Origin: Ottowia thiooxydans DSM 14619
Lineage (GTDB): Bacteria > Pseudomonadota > Gammaproteobacteria > Burkholderiales > Burkholderiaceae_C
Direction: 5' to 3'
DNA: 64,000 bases
Assembly (NCBI RefSeq): GCF_000422885.1
Contig: NZ_AUGX01000028.1
Coordinates: forward strand, 1 to 64,000
The notes under the pieces are model-generated. The model was given only the letters and a program-made list of their open reading frames with translations, was not told the DNA's origin and made no database searches. Shown piece by piece: positions 5,990 to 19,024 of the stretch; position 1 is the first letter of the stretch; each line of letters starts with the position of its first letter. The position numbers were made by a program, and so were the translations under genes.

Positions 5990-6493
5990 ATGATCAAAGT
6001 TGGAGACACCCTGCCTGCCGTCACCTTGACTGAGTATTCTGAAGTCGAAGGCAATGGCTGCAGCATCGGCCCCAATCCGGTAGAAGTGGCTTCCGCCGCT
6101 GCCGGCAAGACCGTCGCCGTTTTTGCTGTTCCCGGTGCTTTTACCCCTACCTGCTCTGCCAAGCATGTCCCTGGCTATCTTGAAAACGCCGACGCACTCA
6201 AAGCGGCTGGTGTGGACGAGATCTGGTGCTTGTCCGTGAACGACGCGTTTGTCATGGGCGCCTGGGCGCGTGATCAGAAGGCAGGGGGAAAAATCCGTTT
6301 CCTCGCCGACGGTAGCGGCGAATTCGCCAAGGCGACGGGCCTGACCCTGGATTTGACCGGTCGCGGCATGGGCGTGCGCAGTAATCGCTATTCCATGCTG
6401 GTCAAAGATGGAAAGGTGAGCACGCTCAATGTGGAAGGACCTGGCAAGTTTGAAGTCAGCGACGGCGCCACCATGCTGGCCCAAGCCAAATAA
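5990..6493 (+). CDS. Peroxiredoxin of the Prx5 group
   Basis: A 167-residue thiol peroxidase that reduces H2O2 and organic peroxides, probably with glutaredoxin or thioredoxin. The peroxidatic cysteine is Cys55 in PGAFTPTCSAKHVPGY, and Cys80 lies in DEIWCLSVNDAFVM, the Prx5 pattern. The ATG at 5990 is chosen over an upstream start because AAGGAG sits at 5975-5980 and the family starts at this point. It has no signal peptide, so it is cytoplasmic. It stands alone between the S10 terminator and the tlpA-like gene. Confidence 0.93.
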   Translation: MIKVGDTLPAVTLTEYSEVEGNGCSIGPNPVEVASAAAGKTVAVFAVPGAFTPTCSAKHVPGYLENADALKAAGVDEIWCLSVNDAFVMGAWARDQKAGGKIRFLADGSGEFAKATGLTLDLTGRGMGVRSNRYSMLVKDGKVSTLNVEGPGKFEVSDGATMLAQAK

Positions 6494-6738
6494 ATTGCCG
6501 AGGCACCCTGACCACTCTGTTAACTCATGGCGGTCAGAGTCCCGGAATTGATAATAGCTTTGTGTTCTGCACTCTTTCAGTGACAGGTGGATAACTCCTG
6601 TAAGGGCGGTACGCCCAAGGCACGAAGTTTGTGAACTTGCAGGGGCAAAACCAGTCTATCTTGGGTCTGCGACCGTCGCCGGTTGCGGGGGCCTGCGCCG
6701 CGCCAAAAGCTTATTGGTCCTACAATCCGGGAATAGCC

Positions 6739-7233
6739 ATGAAACTCGCTGTTAGAACACTTCTTGTTGCTGGGACGACCGCTGTCTTGTTGACGCTGGC
6801 AGGTTGTGCCAAAGACACTGCGCCAGCATCCACTTTTGTGCTGCTGGACGGCAGCCGTACCACGACGCAAGACTTCAAGGGTAAGGTGACCCTGGTCAAT
6901 TTCTGGGCTACCAGCTGCACCACATGCGTGGCCGAGATGCCGCAGATCGTCTCCACCTACGACAAGTTCAAATCACGCGGTTACGAAACCCTGGCTGTAG
7001 CCATGGCGTACGACCCGCCGAACTACGTGGTCAACTTCGCCGAGACCCGCAAACTGCCTTTCAAGGTGGCTATCGATAACACGGGTGCGGTGGCCCAGGC
7101 ATGGGGCGAAGTCAAGTTGACGCCCACGACCTATATCGTCAACAAAAAAGGCGAGATCGTGAAGCGGTATGTGGGCGCGCCCAATTTTCCCGAGCTTCAC
7201 CAGCTGATCGAGAAGCTTCTGGCAGAAGCCTGA
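6739..7233 (+). CDS. TlpA-like thioredoxin-fold lipoprotein
   Basis: A 164-residue protein with a lipoprotein signal peptide (lipobox LAGC, Cys23) and a thioredoxin fold with the redox pair Cys60-Cys63 in NFWATSCTTCVAEMP. Conserved LTPTTYIVNKKGEIVKRYVG contains the cis-proline loop of TlpA/ResA proteins. It is probably anchored to the periplasmic side of a membrane and reduces disulfides, for example in apocytochromes c, which fits the cytochrome c' gene next door. The ATG at 6739 is chosen because it starts directly at the signal peptide; the frame is open upstream. Confidence 0.9.
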   Translation: MKLAVRTLLVAGTTAVLLTLAGCAKDTAPASTFVLLDGSRTTTQDFKGKVTLVNFWATSCTTCVAEMPQIVSTYDKFKSRGYETLAVAMAYDPPNYVVNFAETRKLPFKVAIDNTGAVAQAWGEVKLTPTTYIVNKKGEIVKRYVGAPNFPELHQLIEKLLAEA

Positions 7234-7238
7234 CGACC

Positions 7239-7263
7239 GCCTGGAGCGCTTGGCGTTCCAGGC
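7239..7263. terminator. Hairpin between convergent tlpA-like and cytochrome c' genes
   Basis: An 11-bp stem with one G-T pair (7239-7249 with 7253-7263) and a 3-base loop starts just after the TlpA-like stop. No clear T-tract follows on either strand, so termination is only a suggestion. Confidence 0.4.
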
Positions 7264-7327
7264 TCATTAGCCAGAGCGCATCGCAGGCAGGGCGCCAGGC
7301 GTCTGCAGCGCCCGACACCTACCGGAA

Positions 7328-7783
7328 TCAACGCTTGCGGAAGTCGTCGTGGCAGGCTTTGCAGCTTTGCGCCGCAGGGCCGAAGGCGCCTTTGAGGTTG
7401 TCCAGGTTGCCGGTTTTGGCTGCAGCAGCGACCTTGGTCACCTCGGCTTGCATCTTGTCGCTCAGTTCCTTGAACTTGGCCTGTTCTTTCCAGATTTCCG
7501 GTTTTGCCGCATTGGGGCGGCCAGCGTCCGTTCCCGCGCCAAACGCGTGCCATGGCAGTTTGGACGCCAGAGCCACAACATCCGCATCCATGGAAGCGGC
7601 AGCGGCGTCAAACGGAATCCGGCCTTGAACCATGCCGCCCAAATGGCCAAAGTGATTGCCGAGCAGAGTAAAGGCGGCCTGGCGATATTTGATCGCATCT
7701 TCGGGTTTAGCGAACTGAGCGCTGGCGGGCATGGCCAGGCTGATGGCGCCGAACGCCAAAACAATCGATATCAGCTTTTTCAT
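7328..7783 (-). CDS. Cytochrome c' (class II cytochrome c)
   Basis: A 151-residue periplasmic haem protein. A Sec signal peptide (MKKLISIVLAFGAISLAMPA, cleaved near ASA-QF) precedes a four-helix protein with the haem-binding CKACH at the extreme C-terminus (Cys141, Cys144, His145), the hallmark of class II cytochromes. Cytochromes c' bind NO and are linked to NO tolerance, though the exact role varies. It is transcribed away from the cytochrome b561 gene, with 195 bases between their starts, so the pair is probably co-regulated and may pass electrons from b561 to c'. Confidence 0.93.
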   Translation of the reverse strand: MKKLISIVLAFGAISLAMPASAQFAKPEDAIKYRQAAFTLLGNHFGHLGGMVQGRIPFDAAAASMDADVVALASKLPWHAFGAGTDAGRPNAAKPEIWKEQAKFKELSDKMQAEVTKVAAAAKTGNLDNLKGAFGPAAQSCKACHDDFRKR

Positions 7784-7978
7784 CGTGGTTCTTTCTTTGG
7801 TGTGGGGAAATCGAAAAAGGAAATTCTGCGCGTGATGCTGCCGGCCGTGAAGCTACTACACTGCAGTCCATGGCGATGCGCCCTTCCGGAGCATATCTTG
7901 CCTGAACTCCAATAATAATTCCGTACGGCGTGCGCTCATTTGCACGTTCGGTGCTCGAACCCCACGAAATCGTCCATC

Positions 7979-8653
7979 ATGAAAACCACCCGCATCTGGG
8001 ACCTCCCTACCCGAATATTCCACTGGCTCCTGGCGGCCGCGGTCATAGGGCTTGTGATCTCCGGCAAGGTGGGCGGCAATGCGATGAACTGGCACATTCG
8101 CTTGGGCTACGTGGTGTTCGCGCTGCTGGTATTTCGCGTGATTTGGGGCCTGGTGGGCGGTCATTGGTCCAGGTTTGCCTCTTTTTTCCCCACGCCCGCC
8201 CGCCTGGGCCGTTACTTCCGTGGAAAACCTCTGGCCCAAGACACCGCAGGCCATACCCCGCTTGGTGCGCTTTCCGTGTTTGCCATGCTGCTCGTGCTGG
8301 GCGCGCAAGTCGCAAGCGGCTTGGTCTCTGATGACGAGATCGCCTTTTCCGGGCCCTTGACCGCCCTGGTGTCTGGCGACACGGTCAATCTGGCCACGGG
8401 CTACCACAAGGATTGGGGGCAACTTCTGGTCATTGGCTTGATCGCCCTGCACATCGTGGCAGTCTTGATCTACTGGATCATCAAGAAGAACAATCTCATC
8501 AAGCCCATGCTGGCAGGTGACAAGACGCTTGCTTCGGAAGTGGTGGCGACACGGGATTCCGCCAAGACGCGTTTGGTGGCATTGGCGGTGCTTCTAGTGG
8601 CGGTAGCCATCGTTTATACGGTGATTGGTTTGGCCAGTCCTGCGCTAAACTGA
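7979..8653 (+). CDS. Cytochrome b561 family membrane protein
   Basis: A 224-residue inner-membrane dihaem cytochrome b of the bacterial b561/HupC-like group. It opens with WDLPTRIFHWLLAAAV, where the histidine of RIFHW is a typical haem ligand, and shows four hydrophobic helices with HIRLGY, GHTPLGA and LHIVAVLIYW as further conserved His regions, plus an extra C-terminal helix. The ATG at 7979 fits the family start better than an upstream one. It probably moves electrons from quinol to a periplasmic cytochrome c, plausibly the divergent cytochrome c'. Confidence 0.9.
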   Translation: MKTTRIWDLPTRIFHWLLAAAVIGLVISGKVGGNAMNWHIRLGYVVFALLVFRVIWGLVGGHWSRFASFFPTPARLGRYFRGKPLAQDTAGHTPLGALSVFAMLLVLGAQVASGLVSDDEIAFSGPLTALVSGDTVNLATGYHKDWGQLLVIGLIALHIVAVLIYWIIKKNNLIKPMLAGDKTLASEVVATRDSAKTRLVALAVLLVAVAIVYTVIGLASPALN

Positions 8654-8692
8654 AGCTGAGACTATATTTCGCGCCACGCGCGTACCACTGCA

Positions 8693-9193
8693 TTGGATAC
8701 TCCACCTCCTATAGAAATCGTCGTCGCCCACACGCCCGAGCAAATCAAGGTCATTGGCGAGTTGTTTGAAGAGTACGCATCGGGCCTTCAGGTCGATCTG
8801 GACTTTCAGGGCTTCAAAACAGAGCTGGCGCAGTTGCCTGGCGTGTATGCTGAGCCCAGAGGCGTCTTGCTGCTGGCGCTGGTCGATGGAGAAGCGGCAG
8901 GGTGTTGTGCGCTGTCTCCACTAGACGATGTGGATTACAGCAACGCCTCGGAAATGAAACGCCTGTACGTCCGCAAGGCATTCAGAGGCTTCGGACTAGG
9001 GCGGCAACTCGCCGAGGCCATTCTGGAGGCGGCAGATCGCCTGGGCTATGCAAACGTGCTGCTCGACACACTAAGCGACATGGAAGCCGCAAGAGCCTTG
9101 TACGAGGAACTGGGTTTCGTGGAAATCCCGCCCTACTATCACAACCCGGTGGCGGGGGCGCACTATCTCAAGGTGGATTTGACCGGCTGCTGA
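8693..9193 (+). CDS. GNAT family N-acetyltransferase
   Basis: A 166-residue GCN5-related acetyltransferase. The acetyl-CoA binding motif A is seen in MKRLYVRKAFRGFGLGRQLA and motif B in LDTLSDMEAARALYEELGF. The substrate cannot be told. The frame begins at a TTG (8693), the only suitable start, with no clear ribosome-binding site, so the exact start is uncertain. It follows the b561 gene by 39 bases in the same direction. Confidence 0.85.
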   Translation: MDTPPPIEIVVAHTPEQIKVIGELFEEYASGLQVDLDFQGFKTELAQLPGVYAEPRGVLLLALVDGEAAGCCALSPLDDVDYSNASEMKRLYVRKAFRGFGLGRQLAEAILEAADRLGYANVLLDTLSDMEAARALYEELGFVEIPPYYHNPVAGAHYLKVDLTGC

Positions 9194-9227
9194 GTCTGGT
9201 GGTGCAGCCCGCCAATGAGCGCCCGCG

Positions 9228-9473
9228 TTATTTTCCGGTGAACATGAAGTAGGCAAGCACGCAGACGGCCAGTGCCACGATGAGGCGAGCCAGCCACGGC
9301 GTGACCAACCAGGCTCCGAGCACGCCCAGCGCGGTGGTCCATACGCGTGGAGATTGGAGGGCGTTTGCGCTCTGGCCATTCGCGTTGAGTCTTTGTGGAT
9401 GGCCACAGGAGGGGCAAGCGGTAGCTTGAGTGGAAATGGTGTGCCCGCACTCCGGGCATTGGATCAGTGCCAT
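9228..9473 (-). CDS. Small zinc-ribbon membrane protein
   Basis: An 81-residue protein with an N-terminal zinc ribbon (CPECGH and CPSCGHP, four cysteines in two CxxC pairs) and one or two hydrophobic helices at the C-terminus ending MFTGK. Such proteins are usually annotated only as zinc-ribbon domain proteins. It starts two bases after the OmpA-like gene stop, so it is probably the last gene of the surface-structure operon, though its role there is unknown. Confidence 0.7.
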   Translation of the reverse strand: MALIQCPECGHTISTQATACPSCGHPQRLNANGQSANALQSPRVWTTALGVLGAWLVTPWLARLIVALAVCVLAYFMFTGK

Positions 9474-9475
9474 GG

Positions 9476-10183
9476 TCAGTTTTTTTGTCCCGCTTCGATC
9501 AGAATCTGCACCCGCCGGTTGAGTTGCCGGCCCTCTGGGTTGTCCTTGCCGTCTTTCGTCTGGTTTGCAGCAACCGGCTCACGCCGCCCTAATCCCTGGG
9601 TGGCCGCCTTGCGCCCTGTGCGTTCCTGAAGCGCCAATGCCACGGTCAGCGCCCTGCGTTGGGACAGGCGATCATTGTAGGCGTCGCTTCCTTTCGCGTC
9701 CGTATGCCCCCGAACGAGCAGTGGCGCGGCCGGGTAGCCCTGAATCAACTCGGCCGCCTGGTCCAGAGAAGAGCCTGCGTCGGCGCGGAGTTCGAATTTG
9801 TCGAAATCGAAGAGAACATCGGCTGGCAAGTCAATCGAGATGGCCTTCGACGGCGTGGGCTGCGCCTTCAGTTCCTTAAGCAACGCGCGCGTTCGCTCCA
9901 GTCGCTCGGGTGGCACCTCGGCCGTCCGCAAAAGAGTATCAGGAACCGCCGTGGACTTGAGCGACGTTGAAGGATAGCCGGGGCTCAAATCGTCAGGCGT
10001 CTGCTGGCGCCGGAGGCTGGTTTGCGGCGCGTTCGCGGCAGGTGCCAGCCGGGACGGTTCTCCAGACAGTGCGCGATTGGAGCGGGTGATGTCCGTGGCA
10101 CCTGCGGCGGAACCTGCCAGCACGGTGCCCACCATCAGCCCGGCAAGACATGCAGACCGAAGGTGGCGCACGCGGCGATGCAT
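9476..10183 (-). CDS. OmpA-family peptidoglycan-binding protein
   Basis: A 235-residue secreted protein: signal peptide to about residue 28, a Pro/Ser/Thr-rich linker, and a C-terminal OmpA-like domain from about residue 115. That domain has LFDFDKFELRADAGSSLDQA, VRGHTDAKGSDAYNDRLSQR and NRRVQILI, the motif that binds diaminopimelate in peptidoglycan. There is no N-terminal beta-barrel, so it is a periplasmic anchor rather than a porin. Its start overlaps the preceding lipoprotein stop (ATGA), showing coupling. In this locus it may fasten the secretion complex to the cell wall. Confidence 0.88.
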   Translation of the reverse strand: MHRRVRHLRSACLAGLMVGTVLAGSAAGATDITRSNRALSGEPSRLAPAANAPQTSLRRQQTPDDLSPGYPSTSLKSTAVPDTLLRTAEVPPERLERTRALLKELKAQPTPSKAISIDLPADVLFDFDKFELRADAGSSLDQAAELIQGYPAAPLLVRGHTDAKGSDAYNDRLSQRRALTVALALQERTGRKAATQGLGRREPVAANQTKDGKDNPEGRQLNRRVQILIEAGQKN

Positions 10184-10809
10184 CAGCCCCCCTGCAGCGG
10201 CAGGTCCATCGTCAGGCCCGGCGCGACGATGTTGTCATCCGGATTGCCTTCATTGAATACCAGGCGCAGGGTGCGCGCTGAGGCCGGTACAGCCCCCATG
10301 AACACCAGCCGGCCGTCCAGCGTTTCGCCAGTATGGACGGAAAGATTGCGGTTGTCCTGCGGACGCTTGATCTGCAAGCGGGCACCGTTCTCCACTTCGA
10401 GGAACGTGTCCGTGAGGGCCATCATGGTGCTGTTGGTGATTCGGTTGGAAAACGAAATGCTCACATCCAGGACTGTGGCGTCGGTACCAATCTCTATGTT
10501 CTTCACACGAACCGTGGCACCGGCAGCTGAAACCCCCTGAACACTCAGCGCCATTTTCTTGGGTTCGGTAGCGACCAGGGATGAGACGCCGGACTGCGGC
10601 GTGGCCTGCGGCGCGGCCACCGGCGCGGGCTCCGCAGTTGCAGGAGCAGCAGGAACGGTAGGGGCGGCGGCAGGTGGGTTCGCCGAGGCCGGGACTTGGG
10701 CATAAGGTGCCTCTGCAGGCCTGTCTTTGCAGCCAGCCAACAGGACGCCCAGTACCAGTGCGCACGCCGCGAGTGCGCCAGATCCATGATTGGCTTTTCT
10801 GATCTTCAT
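10183..10809 (-). CDS. Lipoprotein with DUF4352-like Ig fold
   Basis: A 208-residue lipoprotein (lipobox LLAGC, Cys27) with an Ala/Pro-rich linker to about residue 75. A beta-rich domain follows with a pattern typical of Ig-like DUF4352 proteins (VRVKNIEIGTDATVLDVSIS, LVFMGAVPASARTLRLVF). The ATG at 10809 is chosen because GAGGAG lies 8 bases before it and the signal peptide starts there; the frame is open further upstream. It is translationally coupled to the OmpA-like gene. Function unknown; probably an envelope component of the CsgG-like locus. Confidence 0.7.
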   Translation of the reverse strand: MKIRKANHGSGALAACALVLGVLLAGCKDRPAEAPYAQVPASANPPAAAPTVPAAPATAEPAPVAAPQATPQSGVSSLVATEPKKMALSVQGVSAAGATVRVKNIEIGTDATVLDVSISFSNRITNSTMMALTDTFLEVENGARLQIKRPQDNRNLSVHTGETLDGRLVFMGAVPASARTLRLVFNEGNPDDNIVAPGLTMDLPLQGG

Positions 10810-10891
10810 TGTGGTGACTCCTCGAAATGGCATGAATGGATGCTTCCGTCCGATGGGGTGCGCCCTCATGGGCTGCAACGTGCTGAGTGAA

Positions 10892-11293
10892 TTATCTGAT
10901 CGTGATGCTGTTGATCTGGACAGGCGCTTGCCTGGACCCACCGTGCGGGACGGGACAGTCGATATCTTTGGGGGAGACCACATTTCCATCCTGAATGATC
11001 ACGGTTCGCCCCTTGAGGCTTGCACCATCGATGTTCACGCTGTTGACAGACCCAGATCCGCCGCCTGCACAGCGCACGCCCGAGACCGAGTTGCCTGTGA
11101 TTTCGATCCGGTTGCCGGACTGCTTGGGCACCGAGGCCTGGCCAGCAGGACTCGAACCGGGCGTGGTGCCCGCGGCCTGGGCGCCGCTGGCATGCGCCAC
11201 CCCAAACAGCAATCCCGCACAGAGTACCCGCCACCTGAGTGGCCCACGGGAATTGACAGCAGCAAACTTGGGAGTGTGTGGATGCAGGTTCAT
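10892..11293 (-). CDS. Small secreted protein with Asn-Ser-Val repeats
   Basis: A 133-residue protein with a signal peptide (hydrophobic LCAGLLFGVAHASGA, cleavage near AQA-AG). The mature part carries roughly two copies of the repeat seen in the giant protein of this locus: RIEITGNSVSGVRCAGG and GSVNSVNIDGASL with GRTVIIQDGNVV. Two cysteines (in VRCAGG and DIDCPV) could form a disulfide, unlike the cysteine-free repeats of the larger protein. It may be a minor subunit, nucleator or cap. No known family recognised. Confidence 0.65.
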   Translation of the reverse strand: MNLHPHTPKFAAVNSRGPLRWRVLCAGLLFGVAHASGAQAAGTTPGSSPAGQASVPKQSGNRIEITGNSVSGVRCAGGGSGSVNSVNIDGASLKGRTVIIQDGNVVSPKDIDCPVPHGGSRQAPVQINSITIR

Positions 11294-11306
11294 TGGTCAG
11301 GGCGCC

Positions 11307-12164
11307 CTAAGGCGTACGAGGTGCAGGAACACCGGGTAGAACGGTTCCCGGGGTGGAGCCTCCGCTGCCAGTGGGCGGCGGCATGGGCGCGTGTGGCAAA
11401 CCGGGCACCCGGTTGTCCGCCCTGGGCAGGAGCTGCGCCGGGCTCGTCCCTGGCTCCAACGTGGGCGCCTGTCCGTCCTCGCGCCTGATCTGCTGCGTCA
11501 ACTGGGTCGCAAAGCGTTCTGCCAGCGCCATCTCTTCCACCGCCATTTCATCGCCCAGTTCGTTGATGATGGACAGTACGTCGGCCTTGGCTCCGGCACC
11601 CGGCAGCGACATTCGCTGCGCCAGCCTTGCATAGCCCAAGGCTTTGACGTTGTCCCTGGGTACGCCCGCGCCGGCGCGGTTCATTTCCGACAGGCGTTGC
11701 ATGGCTTGCGGATCGCCCCGGACTGCGGCCATCAGGTACCAGCGATAAGCCTGGCCCATGTCGCTGAAGCCGGACCTGGGATTGCGATAGGCATCTCCGA
11801 CGAACGACAGAAGGCCCGGGTTCTGCGTGGTGATGGCCTCAGTCTTGAGCCGCTCCAATTCATTGCGATAGATGGGCGCCTGACATCCAGCGTCGACAAT
11901 GCCTCGCTTGAGCGCGTCATTGCAGTTCTCAATGAACCGCGCCGCGGTGGACGAGTTGACCTGCTGTGGCGCTTGTGGCGATGGCGTCGCCTGAGCCTGG
12001 GTGGCTTGTGACTGGATGGCCTGCGCCTGGGAAGGTGCGGTGGCTGTTTGAGCCAGTGCCCATGAAGGCAGCGCCAGCGCGATGGCCGCCAGGGCTGCCA
12101 ACGCACCACCACGACCTGCTTTTACTGACAGGCCTGGCAAGCGATCATGAGTGTGTTCGCTCAT
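11307..12164 (-). CDS. Secreted Sel1-like repeat protein
   Basis: A 285-residue exported protein. A signal peptide (hydrophobic LAALAAIALALPSWA, cleavage near ALA-QT) is followed by a Gln/Ala-rich linker, a helical region with Sel1-type motifs (DMGQAYRWYLMAAVRGDPQA, NVKALGYARLAQRM) and a Pro/Gly-rich tail. Sel1 repeats mediate protein contacts. AAGGAAGGA precedes the ATG at 12164, which lies 4 bases after the CsgG-like gene stop, so the two are tightly coupled. Probably a periplasmic adaptor of the secretion system; this is inferred from position only. Confidence 0.7.
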   Translation of the reverse strand: MSEHTHDRLPGLSVKAGRGGALAALAAIALALPSWALAQTATAPSQAQAIQSQATQAQATPSPQAPQQVNSSTAARFIENCNDALKRGIVDAGCQAPIYRNELERLKTEAITTQNPGLLSFVGDAYRNPRSGFSDMGQAYRWYLMAAVRGDPQAMQRLSEMNRAGAGVPRDNVKALGYARLAQRMSLPGAGAKADVLSIINELGDEMAVEEMALAERFATQLTQQIRREDGQAPTLEPGTSPAQLLPRADNRVPGLPHAPMPPPTGSGGSTPGTVLPGVPAPRTP

Positions 12165-12168
12165 GCGC

Positions 12169-13323
12169 TCATCCTTCCTTGGTCGCGGCAACTGCCTGAA
12201 CCGGCACGCCTGCCTTGGCCTCCCGCGGCAGCAGAGTTCCATCCCAGGCCATGGGCACGCCAAAGAATAGAGGCTCGAAGCCTTTCCATTGCATGACATC
12301 GACGGTCCCCAAGTCCGAATAGCGTTCCGAAAACACCTTCTGCAGAGCTTCCTGTGTGGGCGCATCCAGCTGCTGTGTCACTTGCAAGGGCTGGCCATAC
12401 TTGCGCAAGGTCACCTGTATGAGGCCGAGCTTGAGTTCAGGCGTCAGGGACTCATAGGCAGATCTCATGTTGTTGACCACCACCGGATCGGGTTGACCGC
12501 CCGGAATGCAGCGCCAGTAAGGCGTGTTGGTAGCCTTGCCGATCAGTTCCAGAACACTGAGGTCCACCAGAGTGCGAATGGCTGAATGTCTGCCTTGCAG
12601 GTACTTTCCCTCCAGCTTGAATCCGAATGCATCACCATAAAAGCCAATGCTCGCGTTGTCTTCGGAACTGAAGTTGAGCACCTTGATGGCGTTCGAGGCC
12701 TGAATGCGCGGCACCATCTGCTGCGTGGAAAAACTCACCAGATTCAGGTCCAGCGCGAGTGCAGAGAAGATCGCTGTGCGCTTGATGTCCCCGCCAAGCT
12801 CGACCTTGCCTTTGCCACCCCCAAACTGCAGGCCAAGCGAGTTCGAGCGGCCTGCGCCAGAAATGGCGCGGTCAAACTCCGTCAGCGCTCCTGTGATCAG
12901 GAAGTCCGGCATGGTGACCCCGAATTTGGCTCCTAACTGTGCTTGAGACACCAGATAGTCGGGGTGATAGGGCACATAGACCACGCGTGCGCCAATGCGG
13001 TTGACGGCAGTGCGCACCATCTCGGTAATGTCGCCCGGAATCTCTGCGCCCACCAGCGGATTGGACAGGTTGGTTGCATCCATGATGCTGCGTGTCTGCA
13101 TGTAGATGACAGGATCGCCATCCTTGTAGATGTCCAGCATCTGGCCAAACCGCAAGAGCGATTGCGCATACGGACTCAGATTGGCCACAGGCTGCAGTTT
13201 GTCGCCCTCCCTTTCTGCCATCAGCTTGGTCGCATCGCTGAGCGCGTTTTCCGTAGTGGCACACCCCATCAAGGACGCTGCAGCCAGTGCCAGCGCCACC
13301 CTCCGAATAATCTTTTTATGCAT
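12169..13323 (-). CDS. CsgG/HfaB-like outer-membrane secretion lipoprotein
   Basis: A 384-residue lipoprotein (lipobox LMGC, Cys21). Its middle resembles the CsgG pore domain by eye: DFLITGALTEFDRAISG matches the CsgG strand before the glycine-rich constriction, ALALDLNLVSFSTQQMV matches the region reading VNLRVVNVSTGEIL in E. coli CsgG, and HSAIRTLVDLSVLELIGK matches its C-terminal helix. CsgG exports curli subunits across the outer membrane; HfaB is the relative in Caulobacter holdfast anchoring. About 60 extra C-terminal residues exceed CsgG length. Flanking secreted repeat proteins are its likely cargo. Family assignment is by eye, not by search. Confidence 0.75.
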   Translation of the reverse strand: MHKKIIRRVALALAAASLMGCATTENALSDATKLMAEREGDKLQPVANLSPYAQSLLRFGQMLDIYKDGDPVIYMQTRSIMDATNLSNPLVGAEIPGDITEMVRTAVNRIGARVVYVPYHPDYLVSQAQLGAKFGVTMPDFLITGALTEFDRAISGAGRSNSLGLQFGGGKGKVELGGDIKRTAIFSALALDLNLVSFSTQQMVPRIQASNAIKVLNFSSEDNASIGFYGDAFGFKLEGKYLQGRHSAIRTLVDLSVLELIGKATNTPYWRCIPGGQPDPVVVNNMRSAYESLTPELKLGLIQVTLRKYGQPLQVTQQLDAPTQEALQKVFSERYSDLGTVDVMQWKGFEPLFFGVPMAWDGTLLPREAKAGVPVQAVAATKEG

Positions 13324-13338
13324 AGGTCTGGTCGAGTT

Positions 13339-13851
13339 TCAGCGTGGAGAATTCAACACCGTGATGTTTTCGACGCCTCTTCCTTCGACGAAGAGAGTGA
13401 CGCTGCCGTTCACGTTGCCCTGAATCACGGGACTGGCGATGCGCAGGCTGCCGTCGGTGCCCCGCCTCACATCTGAATAGTCCGTACGGATCACGATGTT
13501 CTGCTGGTTGTCCGGCAGCTTCAGGGTGCCATCGGGCTGCACGAGCGCGCTTTGATCCACCAGCGAATTCCTGGAGATGGCGTGGTTCACCCGCGCCTTG
13601 GCACTCACCGATGGAAACACACCGTCATTCAGGCGCACGCCCGACTGCGACTGGTCCTTGTAGCTGGACAGTTGCTCGCCGTAATTCACCATTTGCGCCT
13701 GAGCACTCAGGGCGCACCATGCGAGTGCGCAACTCACGCCAAGGCATCGGATCGTGTTCCGGACGGCGCCGTTTGATTCAGAGGTCTGGTCTCTCATTTC
13801 ATTGCCCTTTCTTTGAAATGCGGAAAAAAGCGGTTGACTCTTGATTCGCAC
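13339..13851 (-). CDS. HfaA-like secreted protein
   Basis: A protein of up to 170 residues; an internal ATG beginning MRDQTSESNG is equally possible as start. A hydrophobic export signal (LGVSCALAWCALSAQA) is followed by QMVNYGEQLSSYKDQSQSG and a C-terminal beta-rich part with IQGNVNGSVTLFVEGRGVEN. Size, order and position directly before a CsgG/HfaB-like gene recall hfaA-hfaB of Caulobacter, where HfaA is a secreted holdfast-anchor subunit. It shares a loose GN-x-N-G-S-V pattern with the giant protein. Identity as an HfaA relative is tentative. Confidence 0.6.
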   Translation of the reverse strand: MRIKSQPLFSAFQRKGNEMRDQTSESNGAVRNTIRCLGVSCALAWCALSAQAQMVNYGEQLSSYKDQSQSGVRLNDGVFPSVSAKARVNHAISRNSLVDQSALVQPDGTLKLPDNQQNIVIRTDYSDVRRGTDGSLRIASPVIQGNVNGSVTLFVEGRGVENITVLNSPR

Positions 13852-13857
13852 ATGCTA

Positions 13858-16800
13858 CTAGTTGCTGATGACGTTGAATGCAGGCACCACGGTCACTGAG
13901 TTGTTCACCACGCCCATCGACGGTGTGGAATACGTGTAGCCAGGGTTGGATGCATAGGCCGCGTTGCCTGCGACCCCGGCCGAGCCCACGATGGCGCCGC
14001 CCATGTTGCGCACGCTGCCTGAAGTGATTCCCGCTGCCGCTGCGGTCCGGTTGCCCACGATGGCCACTTTGCCGGTGATCACGCCGTGATTGATGACCGA
14101 GTTGGAGGTGCCTCCCGACATGGAGCGCCCTTCATTGCCGGAGATCACCACGTTGCCGCTCATGACGCCGCGGTTGACCAGCGAATTCACCGTGCCGCCC
14201 ATGGTGGCAGTACCTCTGTTGGCTGAGATGAGAACCTGGCCGCTCAATTGGCCGCGGTTGTCCACACTGTTGACCAGACCGCCGCCCGAGGCTCTGCCTT
14301 CGTTGCCGATCAGGGCGATCCTGGCGCCAGTGATGCTGCCTGAATTCTTCACGCTGTTCACGGTCCCGCCCTGGCTGGTGCTTCCGGTGTTGTCGATGAT
14401 GGAGATCTGGCTGCTTCTGATGGGTCCGTTGCCGGTGATGCTGTTGACCGTTCCACCGCCTGAGACGTTCCCGCGGTTGTTGAGCAGGGCCAGTTGCGAC
14501 CCGGCGATGTTTCCGCTCACGGCCACGCTGTTGGCGGTGCCTTTGTCTGCACTGCCACTGTTGCCAAGTATGGTGATGTTGCCGCCTGAAATCTGGCCCT
14601 CGCCAATCACGCTGTTGATGACTCCACCGCGGCTGGCCGTACCCTGGTTGCCCAGCACCGTGATCTGGCTGCCGCGCAAACTGTCCTTCACATCGACGCT
14701 GTTGGCCGTGCCTGCATCGGCGCGTCCCCGGTTGACAGCCATGTTGACGGAAGAGTCGGATATGCGAGCTCGTTTCCTGGTCCGCACGCTGTTGATGATC
14801 CCGTCTTCTGACGAGGCCTGCGCGCTGCCCTGGTTGCCCGTCATCTGCACCGATAGATTGGTCATCTCTCCCTCGGCGTGGATACTGTTCACCAACGCAG
14901 TGCGACCACCGTCGGCGCGCGTCTGCTCCGCCGTGTTGGTGGCAAGCGTGGCGGTCAAGCGTTCGAGGCGTCCTTCGTCACCCTGCGTAATGCTGTTGGC
15001 CGATGCCAGCCCTTCTGTGGCGGAGACGCTGTTGGCAGTGTTGCCGATCAATTGCAAGCTGGCCCTGCGCATGGCGGACAGCACTTGAACAGTGTTGGCA
15101 TTGGCCTGGCCGACCCCTCTGCCGAAAGCCGCGAATCCGGCGACGGTTCCTTCGGTGCCTTCGCTGTGCAAGCCGCCAGCTGTATTGCCGATCAGACTGG
15201 CGGTGCTGTTTTCTATGCTGCCGCGGCCGTTGATGGACACCGAGTTGGCATTGATGCGGCCGCCCTGGGCGTTCAACTGACGCGCGGTATTGCTCACGAT
15301 CTGCAAGGGGGTGTCGGTCAGGCGGTTGGGTTCGGACCCGTCCAGGTACAAACTGTTGGCGGCCAGCACGCCATTGCTGTTGGATCCCACGCCCGCCACC
15401 TGAGAGCTTCCACCAGTGGCCCGAATGTCATCGCCTCTGTTGTTCAGGATAGTGACCGGGCTGGCATGAATTCGCGCCCCGCGGTACGCCGCCAGCGCAT
15501 TGACCAATGCCGTGCCGCCGTCGACATGCACCTGGCGGGCATCGTTCAGCCCGATCAGCCAGTTGGAAGACTCGTCGATTCTGGCGTCATCATGCAGCAC
15601 CAGCGCGTTGGCTGCAGCCCGAGCACGGCTGTCACTTCGTGCCAGGCCTGCGACAGCAGAGCTTGACTTGGCGGCGGAGCTCAGGTCGCTGGCGGTGTTG
15701 TTCACCAAGGTTCCGGACGCCGATAACTGGGAGCTGGCGCCCCCGCCATCTTCCAAAGAGATGCTGTTGGCCATCAGGATGCCTCCCCTGGCGGCCAGGT
15801 TGGTGGCCTGGTTGCCTGTGAAAGTGAGGCTTTTGGCGTCCATCTGGGAGCCGGTGACGGCCAGCGCATTGGCCAACGCAGCAGATTGCTGCCCGGCAGA
15901 ATAGAGCAGGCCGCCGCCCGCCTGAGCGGCATAGCCGGTCGACTGCACTTGCTGTGCGCGGTTGTTCAGGAAAGTCACCGTGGACTTCTGAATGCGCCCT
16001 TCGCTGACGGTGGCCGAGTTGGCGCTGGCGAAACCGCCGGTGCCCGTAATGCCACGCCCTTCGTTGGACTGTAGATAAAGTGTGCTCTGGTCCAGAGTGG
16101 ATTGACGATCGATCGCTACCGAGTTGCTGAGCGCACGGCCATTGCGGTCGACTGAGGCCACGATACCCGCCCCGATGCTGCCCGAAGCGCCCGTCGTGCG
16201 CACCTGCTCCGATCGGTTGCCATCGAGCTGTATGGAGCCTCCGTTGACGGTGGCTTCGTCAATCCAGATGCTGTTGGCCGATGCCGCCCCGCCAGTTGCC
16301 ACCACATCTACCGCGCGGTTGTTGGCCAGCGAATGGGTGGGCGCTTGTGCCAGCTGTCCTTTCTGCACGGAAATCGCGTTGGCCAGGGCCGACGCCGACA
16401 TTCGGACATCGGCCAGTGCACCACCCAAAATGCTGCCTTCGCCACCGAAGGCCTGCACGTTGGTGGCGGTATTGCTGCGCAGATGGGCGGTGTATCCTGC
16501 GCCGCCGGTCAACTGATGTTCGGTGAAGCTGATGCTGTTGGCGAGCGCGCTGCCCCCCGTGGAAGTCAGTTGAGAGGCCGTGTTGTCTGACAGGCTCAAC
16601 CTGGCGCCTGCAAGCCCGCTGGAGGTAACCGCTACCGTGTTGGCTGCCGCCACCCCGGTGAGATCCACTTGCGCCAGCATGCCGCGGCCCAGCCCTGAAC
16701 TGCCGCCCCCTGCACGAATATCTGTAGCGCGATTGCCTGAGCTCTGGATCTGCGTGTTGCGCAACTGGCTCTGCGCACCTGTCAGGGCATTGGCCAGTGC

Positions 16801-17430
16801 CGCCCCCCCCATGGAGACAATGCCGTCCGCCTGGTTTCGTGTGAGGGTGGTTTGAGAGTCGTGCACTTCAGTGGCGTCCAGCAGCACGCTGTTGGCTGTG
16901 GCCCTGCCCGGCAATTGCAGTGAACCGGTGCCCAGCAACACAGAGGACTTGGCACCGAATGCGTCTATCTGCGAAGCCTGGTTGTTCATTACCGTGAGGC
17001 GGCTTGACGACAGAGGCTTTCTTCCGGAGCCGCTGGCCGTGAGAACCATGTTGGCCGTAGCGGCACCGCCGAGCGCATTCACCAGGCCCGTGACCTGGTT
17101 GTTCAGAACCTGCAACTGAGTGCTGCGTACCGACATCGAAGAAATCCCGATACCGTTGGCCTGCGCCGTGCCCGCCAGATCGACACTCATGCCGATATTG
17201 GCCAGCGCCGAACCCTTACCTCCAGAGGAGGTCACGGGTCCCTGCGACGTATTGCCCTGAACCCGCACCTGTGAGGAGCTGTCCATTTCCGTGCCGGCGC
17301 TGTTCTTGTGCCAACCGAGGCCGCCCAGCATGGATTCCTGGGCACTCACGCCCTGCGTCCAGGAAGCCATGGCCGCGGTGACGACTGCCCAGGCAAGCCA
17401 ATTCGGTGGTGGCGTTAGCGTCTTGCGCAC
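13858..17430 (-). CDS. Giant secreted repeat protein, probable surface fibre or adhesin
   Basis: About 1190 residues with a signal peptide (PNWLAWAVVTAAMASWTQG, cleavage near VSA-QE). The GTG at 17430 is preferred: AGGGGAA lies just upstream and the signal peptide follows at once, although the frame is open to 17583. The rest is about 30 imperfect repeats. Each has a strand pattern like QITVLGNQGTAS, then Gly-Gly, then A/V-N-S-V. Units are about 38-45 residues in the first two thirds and about 31 in the last third. Cysteine is absent from the repeats. This suggests a beta-solenoid or functional amyloid exported through the CsgG-like pore. No known family recognised. Confidence 0.72.
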   Translation of the reverse strand: MRKTLTPPPNWLAWAVVTAAMASWTQGVSAQESMLGGLGWHKNSAGTEMDSSSQVRVQGNTSQGPVTSSGGKGSALANIGMSVDLAGTAQANGIGISSMSVRSTQLQVLNNQVTGLVNALGGAATANMVLTASGSGRKPLSSSRLTVMNNQASQIDAFGAKSSVLLGTGSLQLPGRATANSVLLDATEVHDSQTTLTRNQADGIVSMGGAALANALTGAQSQLRNTQIQSSGNRATDIRAGGGSSGLGRGMLAQVDLTGVAAANTVAVTSSGLAGARLSLSDNTASQLTSTGGSALANSISFTEHQLTGGAGYTAHLRSNTATNVQAFGGEGSILGGALADVRMSASALANAISVQKGQLAQAPTHSLANNRAVDVVATGGAASANSIWIDEATVNGGSIQLDGNRSEQVRTTGASGSIGAGIVASVDRNGRALSNSVAIDRQSTLDQSTLYLQSNEGRGITGTGGFASANSATVSEGRIQKSTVTFLNNRAQQVQSTGYAAQAGGGLLYSAGQQSAALANALAVTGSQMDAKSLTFTGNQATNLAARGGILMANSISLEDGGGASSQLSASGTLVNNTASDLSSAAKSSSAVAGLARSDSRARAAANALVLHDDARIDESSNWLIGLNDARQVHVDGGTALVNALAAYRGARIHASPVTILNNRGDDIRATGGSSQVAGVGSNSNGVLAANSLYLDGSEPNRLTDTPLQIVSNTARQLNAQGGRINANSVSINGRGSIENSTASLIGNTAGGLHSEGTEGTVAGFAAFGRGVGQANANTVQVLSAMRRASLQLIGNTANSVSATEGLASANSITQGDEGRLERLTATLATNTAEQTRADGGRTALVNSIHAEGEMTNLSVQMTGNQGSAQASSEDGIINSVRTRKRARISDSSVNMAVNRGRADAGTANSVDVKDSLRGSQITVLGNQGTASRGGVINSVIGEGQISGGNITILGNSGSADKGTANSVAVSGNIAGSQLALLNNRGNVSGGGTVNSITGNGPIRSSQISIIDNTGSTSQGGTVNSVKNSGSITGARIALIGNEGRASGGGLVNSVDNRGQLSGQVLISANRGTATMGGTVNSLVNRGVMSGNVVISGNEGRSMSGGTSNSVINHGVITGKVAIVGNRTAAAAGITSGSVRNMGGAIVGSAGVAGNAAYASNPGYTYSTPSMGVVNNSVTVVPAFNVISN

Positions 17431-17541
17431 TCGAAATTCCCCTGATACAAAAAAAACGTCCCCGGCGACTTCTGGCGCAGCGAGGGCTCTTGTCTCCAGG
17501 GTATAGGCCGAGGCTTTGGCTCTCGGCCCGGAGACACCAGC

Positions 17542-17570
17542 AAAACCCCGGCCCTCATTTCGGCTGGGGC
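17542..17570 (-). terminator. Hairpin with T-run upstream of the giant gene
   Basis: On the minus strand an 8-bp GC-rich stem with one mismatch (17563-17570 side pairs with 17546-17553) is followed by TTTT at 17542-17545. It lies between the small repeat gene and the giant gene and could let part of transcription stop, so that the small protein is made in excess. Confidence 0.45.
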
Positions 17571-17655
17571 GTGTCAATCGCACGCTTGGCGAACTGCTTG
17601 CACTTGGACTGATGTGTTCAGGCGGACCGGATGGCTGACCTGGTTCACCATGGCC

Positions 17656-18015
17656 TTAGTTGATGTTCACGGAGTTCACGTTGGCCGTGCCGCCGATGGC
17701 GTTGATATTTTTGGCTTCGTTGTTCATCAGGGTGATCTCCGAGTCCCTGATCTTGGAGCCGGTGATGTTCACGGTGTTGACGTTGGCCACGCCTTCCATG
17801 GAGACCTCGGCGACCTTGATGCCTGCCTTGCCGCCGCCGGCTGTCACATCTGTGGCCTTGTTGCCCGACAGGATGATCTTGCTGTTGGTGATTTCCGAGC
17901 CAGCTGACCCTTTGCCAGAGAACAGGCCGGGAATCGTGACGTTGCCATTTTGGGCAAATGCCGTGCCGCAGGTCAATGCGAGAACGGTGATGGCGGCTGT
18001 AGCAATTTTTCGCAT
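17656..18015 (-). CDS. Small secreted repeat protein, possible major subunit
   Basis: A 119-residue protein with a clear signal peptide (MRKIATAAITVLALTCGTA, cleavage AFA-QN). The 98-residue mature chain consists of the same repeat as the giant protein: EITNSKIILSGNKATDV, ANVNTVNITGSKIRDSE and TANVNSVNIN. It is rich in Asn, Ile, Val and Gly and has no cysteine, like curli subunits. It is the first gene of the minus-strand set, directly behind the AT-rich control region and ahead of a possible attenuating hairpin, consistent with the most abundant product. Function inferred. Confidence 0.7.
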   Translation of the reverse strand: MRKIATAAITVLALTCGTAFAQNGNVTIPGLFSGKGSAGSEITNSKIILSGNKATDVTAGGGKAGIKVAEVSMEGVANVNTVNITGSKIRDSEITLMNNEAKNINAIGGTANVNSVNIN

Positions 18016-18391
18016 AATCGTGATCCTTCGAGGTTGGAGGTTGAAAACTGAAAGAGAATTGCAGCCGCATTCGGCTTGCGGAAGTGATTCTCGTCAACAG
18101 CTGGCATGGTGTACGTAAAGAAAAGTTCCGTAAGTAATCTGACACAGCCGCGTCATAAAATCATTTTTTCACGGCAATCCTTGCTGTAAAGCTATAATAT
18201 TAATAGCGTAGCGTGTCTGCATCAGCTGAATTTAGGTAAACATGCTTACGATAGGAATCAATTGAAATCAAATGAGAGGTTTAAATAAATTTGGTAACTT
18301 TTAAATATTCTTAGTCTATTTGGGAATTTATCTCTGAGCTTATATGATTCACTGAAAAGCTAATTTTCAATATTCACAAGTGCGGAGATCC
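18016..18391. promoter_or_regulatory. AT-rich divergent control region
   Basis: 376 bases between the first gene of the CsgG-like locus (minus) and a lipoprotein gene (plus). From about 18120 to 18375 the sequence is strikingly AT-rich for this genome, with TATAATATTAATA at 18193-18205 and several A/T tracts. Such DNA is typical of H-NS-like silencer binding and of promoters of surface-structure genes. Exact promoter boxes could not be fixed. Confidence 0.55.
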
Positions 18392-19024
18392 ATGCATATT
18401 GCATTCACAAAACTGAGATATTTATTGAATATAGGAGTCATGGTTTCAGCTGCCGGCGTGCTGAGTGCATGCTCACCTGGTTCCTCTGATGGACGGAACA
18501 TCACCTATCCGAGTGACGGACAGATCAGTGCCGCTCTGGATGCGCAGTTAGCCGGTGACCCTAATAGTGCTTCCGCGCGTGAATTGATACAGTCTCTGGG
18601 AGGCGAGAAGGGCAAGCTGAAGTATTCCATCCAGCAGGTGATCTATCGCGAACCTGCTTTTGAGGTTCACTATGACGCCGCTCTTGTCATGGCCCAGGCC
18701 GGTGAGCAGAGTCTGGAGGCGCTCTATTCGCGCATGATCCCCGAGGAGGTGAGAGCCAAGCTGCCGAATTCGACGCTGGCTGCCTACACCGATTGGCTCA
18801 ACAACCACGCGCAGGAGCTTCTGAAAGACCCCGCCCAGAAAGCGCAGGGCGCCGCGCTGACCAGCACCATGACTGCTCTGGGCAAGTGTTACGGTGGCGT
18901 CAAACCCGGCGAAGAAGTTGTCGTGATGAAAGGTCTCGGAGCGCATCTTCTGCCTGAGCGCAAAGGGCTGTTTGCAGAAAAGCTTGCCATGCCGAATGCG
19001 ACTGTGAACTGCCTGCCGATCTGA
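18392..19024 (+). CDS. Lipoprotein of unknown function
   Basis: A 210-residue lipoprotein (lipobox VLSAC, Cys27). The ATG at 18392 is used; an in-frame GTG four codons upstream at 18380 is possible, but GGAGA at 18384-18388 fits the ATG. The mature part looks helical (REPAFEVHYDAALVMAQAGE, YTDWLNNHAQELLKDPAQK) and has two cysteines (GKCYGG and NCLPI). No family recognised. It is divergent from the small repeat gene across the AT-rich region, so it may belong to the same system. Confidence 0.65.
   Translation: MHIAFTKLRYLLNIGVMVSAAGVLSACSPGSSDGRNITYPSDGQISAALDAQLAGDPNSASARELIQSLGGEKGKLKYSIQQVIYREPAFEVHYDAALVMAQAGEQSLEALYSRMIPEEVRAKLPNSTLAAYTDWLNNHAQELLKDPAQKAQGAALTSTMTALGKCYGGVKPGEEVVVMKGLGAHLLPERKGLFAEKLAMPNATVNCLPI

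Follow-up and report, generated by a model that had tools for sequence, protein, structure and literature searches.

The genes at positions 9228 to 19024 of the window, the 64,000-nucleotide stretch of Ottowia thiooxydans DSM 14619 DNA analysed here, raise the question of whether they encode one dedicated surface-structure machine, and whether such a machine would belong to the curli type, to the Hfa type or to neither. The block comprises ten genes, nine on the minus strand from 18015 down to 9228 (A to I, in this order) and one divergent gene, and the minus-strand genes named in the initial annotation are all present between 9228 and 18015. Gene A (17656–18015) encodes a secreted protein of 119 aa, 97 aa when mature, which holds about one module of ~85 residues and is our proposed fibre subunit. 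Gene B (13858–17430) encodes a giant repeat protein of about 1190 aa, counted from a GTG at 17430 that was picked from ortholog lengths, the longest ORF (1241 aa) reaching 17583. C (13339–13797) encodes a small secreted protein of 152 aa that is conserved between B and D, and D (12169–13323) encodes a 384-aa lipoprotein of predicted CsgG/HfaB fold, the proposed outer-membrane export pore. The remaining minus-strand genes encode a secreted protein with a Sel1-type repeat (E, 11307–12164), a secreted 133-aa protein combining an A-type repeat with cysteines (F, 10892–11293), a lipoprotein that has a Pro/Ala-rich linker and, at its C-terminus, a conserved domain unnamed in Pfam (G, 10183–10809), a secreted protein with an OmpA domain (H, 9476–10183), and a small zinc-ribbon protein with a hydrophobic stretch at its C-terminus (I, 9228–9473). 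The starts of B, C, E and G, as well as the signal peptides and lipoboxes, were read from the sequence and from ortholog lengths.

The OmpA domain of H, of the peptidoglycan-binding type (PF00691, 63.1 bits), and the zinc ribbon of I (33.9 bits) exceed the Pfam cut-offs, and the Sel1 match of E (27.9 of 30.7 bits) and the CsgG match of D (12.3 of 20.8 bits) fall under them. Matches of F and G are weak and under cut-off, and window A, B, C and the divergent gene product have no match at E up to 1. In the C family, weak matches to G8 (E=0.0015) and DUF7305 (E=0.0022) each occur in two of nine members, window C having none. Short, strand-like tails containing Asn (NSVNI, NSITI, NSVTV and NITVL) are found at the C-terminal ends of A and F and, in looser form, of B and C, and they might act as a signal for assembly or export. 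The block is headed by the divergent lipoprotein gene (18380–19024, plus strand, about 214 aa), and the AT-rich region between the divergent genes (18016–18379), where GC drops to 0.43–0.45 in the segments covering it and where the promoter-like sites are consensus matches only, is a probable promoter region.

The block is kept together as a unit and sits at several genomic places. A search with D in 150 genomes of the same family gave a match in 33, with a best match of at least 64% identity in nine (the own genome included) and of only 22–34% in the other 24. The ten genes occur in the same order and orientation in seven of the eight ortholog loci (19 kb each; protein identity 31–85%), the eighth being without gene I only. 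A scan of named genomes, which relied on either of two short conserved peptides and is thus geared to close relatives, yielded 33 loci, 25 with all ten genes in order and four without I only (L069, L075, L076 and L077); L059, L062, L067 and L072 end at the edge of the available DNA, and the genes that fit stay in order. Gene I is absent from four of the 29 complete named-genome loci. The record titles read Acidovorax, Diaphorobacter, Pseudacidovorax, Xylophilus, Xenophilus, Variovorax, Vandammella or a higher rank, all of these genera being Comamonadaceae; one locus is in Acidovorax radicis N35. Since five of the eight first contigs recur among the 33, the two sets make up 36 distinct contigs besides the window, some of them from the same strain.

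The flanking genes of the window are not kept with the block. None of the CoA transferase, GNAT and cytochrome b561 genes is present in the eight 19-kb ortholog loci, and the 33 named-genome loci contain no match to the latter two and a 43–44% match to the CoA transferase in five, all Pseudacidovorax, a few kb upstream. When 21 loci were compared, eight (five Acidovorax and three further) had upstream neighbours in common, the loci of other genera shared flanking genes with a few others at most, and three (L046, L066 and L071) had no flanking gene in common with other loci on either side. Within the genus of the window, an ortholog of D was found only in the own genome (one of 29), ten others having only low-identity matches. 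Preservation of the block as a unit while it sits at several places suggests block transfer between genomes. Plasmid carriage was rejected, with a single weak match among 72,556 records. The genes are therefore linked, as the order kept in seven of eight and 25 of 33 loci documents, and not scattered in related genomes.

A structural model of D places it close to CsgG. In a structure comparison of this model, the eight best-ranked entries were all CsgG, the top one with an rmsd of 6.8 Å; the model has a middling pLDDT of 69.6, and 102 of 365 residues, parts of the hairpins among them, lie under 50. The long strands of the model (residues 122–136, 155–178, 184–209 and 212–221) would suit two membrane hairpins. 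Furthermore, profile comparison shows that D is homologous to HfaB across most of its length: the D family with distant relatives (26 rows) matched eight HfaB-family proteins (five score above the NCBIfam HfaB cut-off, three below it) at a probability of 98.9 (E=3.9e-17), and the D orthologs alone did so at 97.2 (E=4.4e-11). D does not qualify as an HfaB equivalog (NF037935; 23.2 bits, cut-off 300), it was not retrieved by the Pfam CsgG model PF03783 in its own genome at E 0.001, and CsgG chains in the PDB reached E=0.07 at best against D by sequence profile. A lipobox-like cysteine is present in six of nine aligned D rows, namely those that start upstream of its position. Taken together, a CsgG fold with long barrel hairpins and the sequence-profile homology support a CsgG/HfaB fold for D and place it in the CsgG/HfaB pore superfamily; the earlier description of a CsgG/HfaB-like lipoprotein of 384 residues is borne out by model and HfaB profile match, and D does not model to an unrelated fold. 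On the strength of the modelled fold, we propose D as a ring-shaped outer-membrane export pore. Elsewhere in the same genome, a separate ORF (L001; G000:C25:11721-12218) is the sole match to the Pfam CsgG model, over cut-off at 31.5 bits, and adjoins an ORF with internal repeats.

The candidate cargo is defined by a repeat. A has a repeat in common both with B (hhalign probability 97.8, E=1e-12; A residues 15–96 on B residues 187–271) and with F (probability 96.0, E=4e-9), and the direct comparison of F with B is weak (probability 14.7). The expectation that the giant protein and both small proteins carry one repeat therefore holds for the pairs A-B and F-A, and weakly for F-B. Specifically, A consists of about one module followed by the first strand of a next module (C-terminus ...ANVNSVNIN), and F ends similarly (NSITIR). 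Because of these C-terminal ends, we propose that A could stack end to end. In window B, the A profile finds nine consecutive matches at mature residues 5–783, spaced ~86 residues apart (E 9e-17 to 0.0099), followed by weaker matches and then by repeats of 28–29 residues. Among 41 B rows (the window and orthologs, some contigs counted twice), 26 have nine modules; six have eight, leave a gap of one module at position seven and were tallied as nine; six, comprising five Pseudacidovorax (mature length 1015) and L072, have eight without such a gap; and three, L075 and L039 (one contig) and L077, have ten. The idea that nine modules match a nine-fold pore was dropped, the count being eight in five Pseudacidovorax loci and ten in Vandammella.

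B has no cysteine, and its 55 invariant Asn columns in nine sequences, together with the 28–29-residue spacing, suggest a beta-solenoid. Neither the A nor the B family (nine members each) has a significant Pfam match, and a sequence search of the PDB with B gave nothing at E up to 0.1. When the A profile was run against 274 genomes of the class, a sample with few close relatives, only the own genome was returned, and C showed no similarity to B in a profile comparison. Between A and B, a hairpin followed by TTTT is present at window positions 17546–17569. A hairpin of -10 kcal/mol or better occurs at this place in five of 34 rows, the mean for shuffled rows being 3.5% (the other eight of the 42 rows lacked a recognisable end motif and were left out, and L039 and L075 are one contig); a transcriptional attenuator between A and B is thus not generally conserved and was rejected.

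A search with D in 399 genomes of the order revealed one ortholog-like match outside the family (G503, 378.6 bits), and its locus, L130, represents a minimal form that rests on this one genome. In gene order, L130 has an OmpA-like protein (42% over 77 residues, E=6e-7), two small proteins, the first A-like (107 aa; profile probability 95, E=3.4e-8) and the second C-like (148 aa; probability 59.5, E=9e-5), and then a D sharing 44% identity with window D. No B, E, F, G or I was found by tblastn at E up to 1, a search that small diverged genes could escape and that also missed the A- and C-like genes, which were recognised by eye and by profile; the ORFs listed for L130 include no giant repeat ORF. 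Judged by this single example, the core of the system would consist of A, C, D and an OmpA-like protein, with B as an apparent elaboration of A. At the place of window E, after D, L130 has a gene (9063–9785) for a 240-aa secreted beta-type protein, presumably a DUF2807-type beta protein.

The same genome contains a second CsgG-like locus (L043; G000:C10:195000-210911, genes at 6199–13287), which we term type 2. Six type 2 loci, drawn from the low-identity D matches, all of the same family and L043 included, follow the same plan and gene order as the window locus, with a repeat protein first, then a small secreted protein, then the CsgG-like lipoprotein and last a Sel1 protein in all six. The repeat protein has SGTSTQ and QNxASN motifs, and that of L043 has a curlin-like look. 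Type 2 differs from the window locus in its repeat and small protein, in the DUF4384 domain on the CsgG-like protein (52.5 bits in L043, over cut-off, with a weak PG_binding_1 match besides) and in its neighbours, a response regulator in six of six loci and a sensor kinase in five of six; in L043 the regulator and kinase genes are divergent. D and the type 2 CsgG-like proteins are 24–30% identical. The A repeat has no profile similarity to the type 2 repeat. A homology of C to the type 2 small protein, tried since their positions correspond, was not found by profile, nor was similarity of the type 2 small protein to HfaA. As far as sequence comparison reaches, the window locus and type 2 share a plan and a pore family and no recognisable cargo. 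Low-identity CsgG-like matches occur in more genomes of the family than the window-type locus, and in other families of the order the CsgG-like gene alone was matched, in four of four loci.

We consider it probable that the block is a dedicated surface-structure machine with D as pore and the repeat proteins as exported fibre, a reading of the genes as one unit and one machine that is supported by the fixed gene order beside flanks that differ between most genera. In this machine, D would form a ring-shaped outer-membrane pore, and A, B, F and possibly C, exported by Sec, would pass through it to the surface. A would be the basic subunit, its extra C-terminal strand could pair with the next copy, and an open-ended stack could result. 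B, which joins mostly nine A-like modules and shorter repeats into one rod, could serve as base, tip or nucleator of near-fixed length, and F, a cysteine-containing variant, may cap or lock the fibre. This subunit logic is drawn from the module common to A and B, the near-constant count in B, the module common to F and A, and the lack of B in L130. Judging from their domains, E may be a periplasmic helper, and H with G may anchor the assembly to peptidoglycan. We thus infer that D forms a pore, that A, B, C and F are exported and that polymerisation takes place, and a likely role would be adhesion or biofilm matrix.

A further step, which we advance tentatively and hold to be somewhat less probable than its negation, is that the locus represents a third class of CsgG-dependent surface fibre, neither curli nor Hfa, in which single-module A polymerises and pre-joined B, with mostly nine modules, sets the length or starts growth, type 2 being a further class with the same plan and other cargo. 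If so, CsgG-type pores would be a general export platform for unrelated beta-repeat fibres, the window locus and type 2 would be two concrete candidates with fixed gene sets, and a block that encodes a module both as a single subunit and as a covalent array would be an unusual natural design for control of fibre length or nucleation. The best-ranked literature matches, among which subscription papers are thinly covered, include no published description of this locus.

Other readings give D, or the whole block, a different part. D could be a CsgG-fold ring lipoprotein, periplasmic or in the outer membrane, that does not export, with A, B, C and F forming an envelope or periplasmic scaffold together with H and G; we regard this as unlikely. 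Less likely still is an Hfa-like, holdfast-type anchor that fixes exopolysaccharide to the cell. According to a study in Caulobacter, outer-membrane placement of HfaA and HfaD needs HfaB, their presumed pore (PMC6707917). D is a relative of HfaB, and a small secreted protein gene (C) followed by the pore gene recalls hfaA-hfaB, but D remains far under the HfaB equivalog cut-off (23.2 of 300 bits), and neither HfaA nor HfaD similarity is detectable. Specifically, C was rejected as HfaA, as which it had been labelled, at a probability of 0.4 against four candidates chosen by position upstream of HfaB (two near-identical), and B was rejected as HfaD at a probability of 0.2 against four candidates chosen by position downstream of HfaB, both with shallow alignments of low power; the NCBIfam matches of the locus include no HfaA-named model, of which NCBIfam may have none. 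Furthermore, the window locus has A, E, F, G, H and I in addition, and Pfam finds no polysaccharide-synthesis (hfs-type) domain in any of the ten conserved proteins.

A diverged curli system (csgBAC-csgDEFG, type VIII secretion), in which A would be CsgA, is, in our view, highly improbable. Up to an E of 1, Pfam gives none of A, B, C and F a curlin match, and the A, B and C families, with nine members each, have none either. The curli core motif QxGxxN is lacking in A, C and F, and the 1241-aa ORF of B contains two copies. By this measure, the A/B/F repeat appears to be a new cargo, unrelated to curli. The ten proteins also contain no CsgE or CsgF domain by Pfam, although both proteins may be missing from alphaproteobacterial curli systems as well (PMC3521004). 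The initial annotation, which saw no csgA/B/E/F or polysaccharide genes here, was accurate for the ten proteins, and by content the block is neither a csg nor an hfa locus. Compared with curli CsgG, D adds a C-terminal helical part, and in nine aligned D proteins Tyr, Phe and Trp are all lacking from the loop that corresponds to the aromatic constriction. What the proposed surface-structure machine has in common with curli is the CsgG fold of D and a small repeat protein, potentially amyloid-forming, as the candidate subunit.
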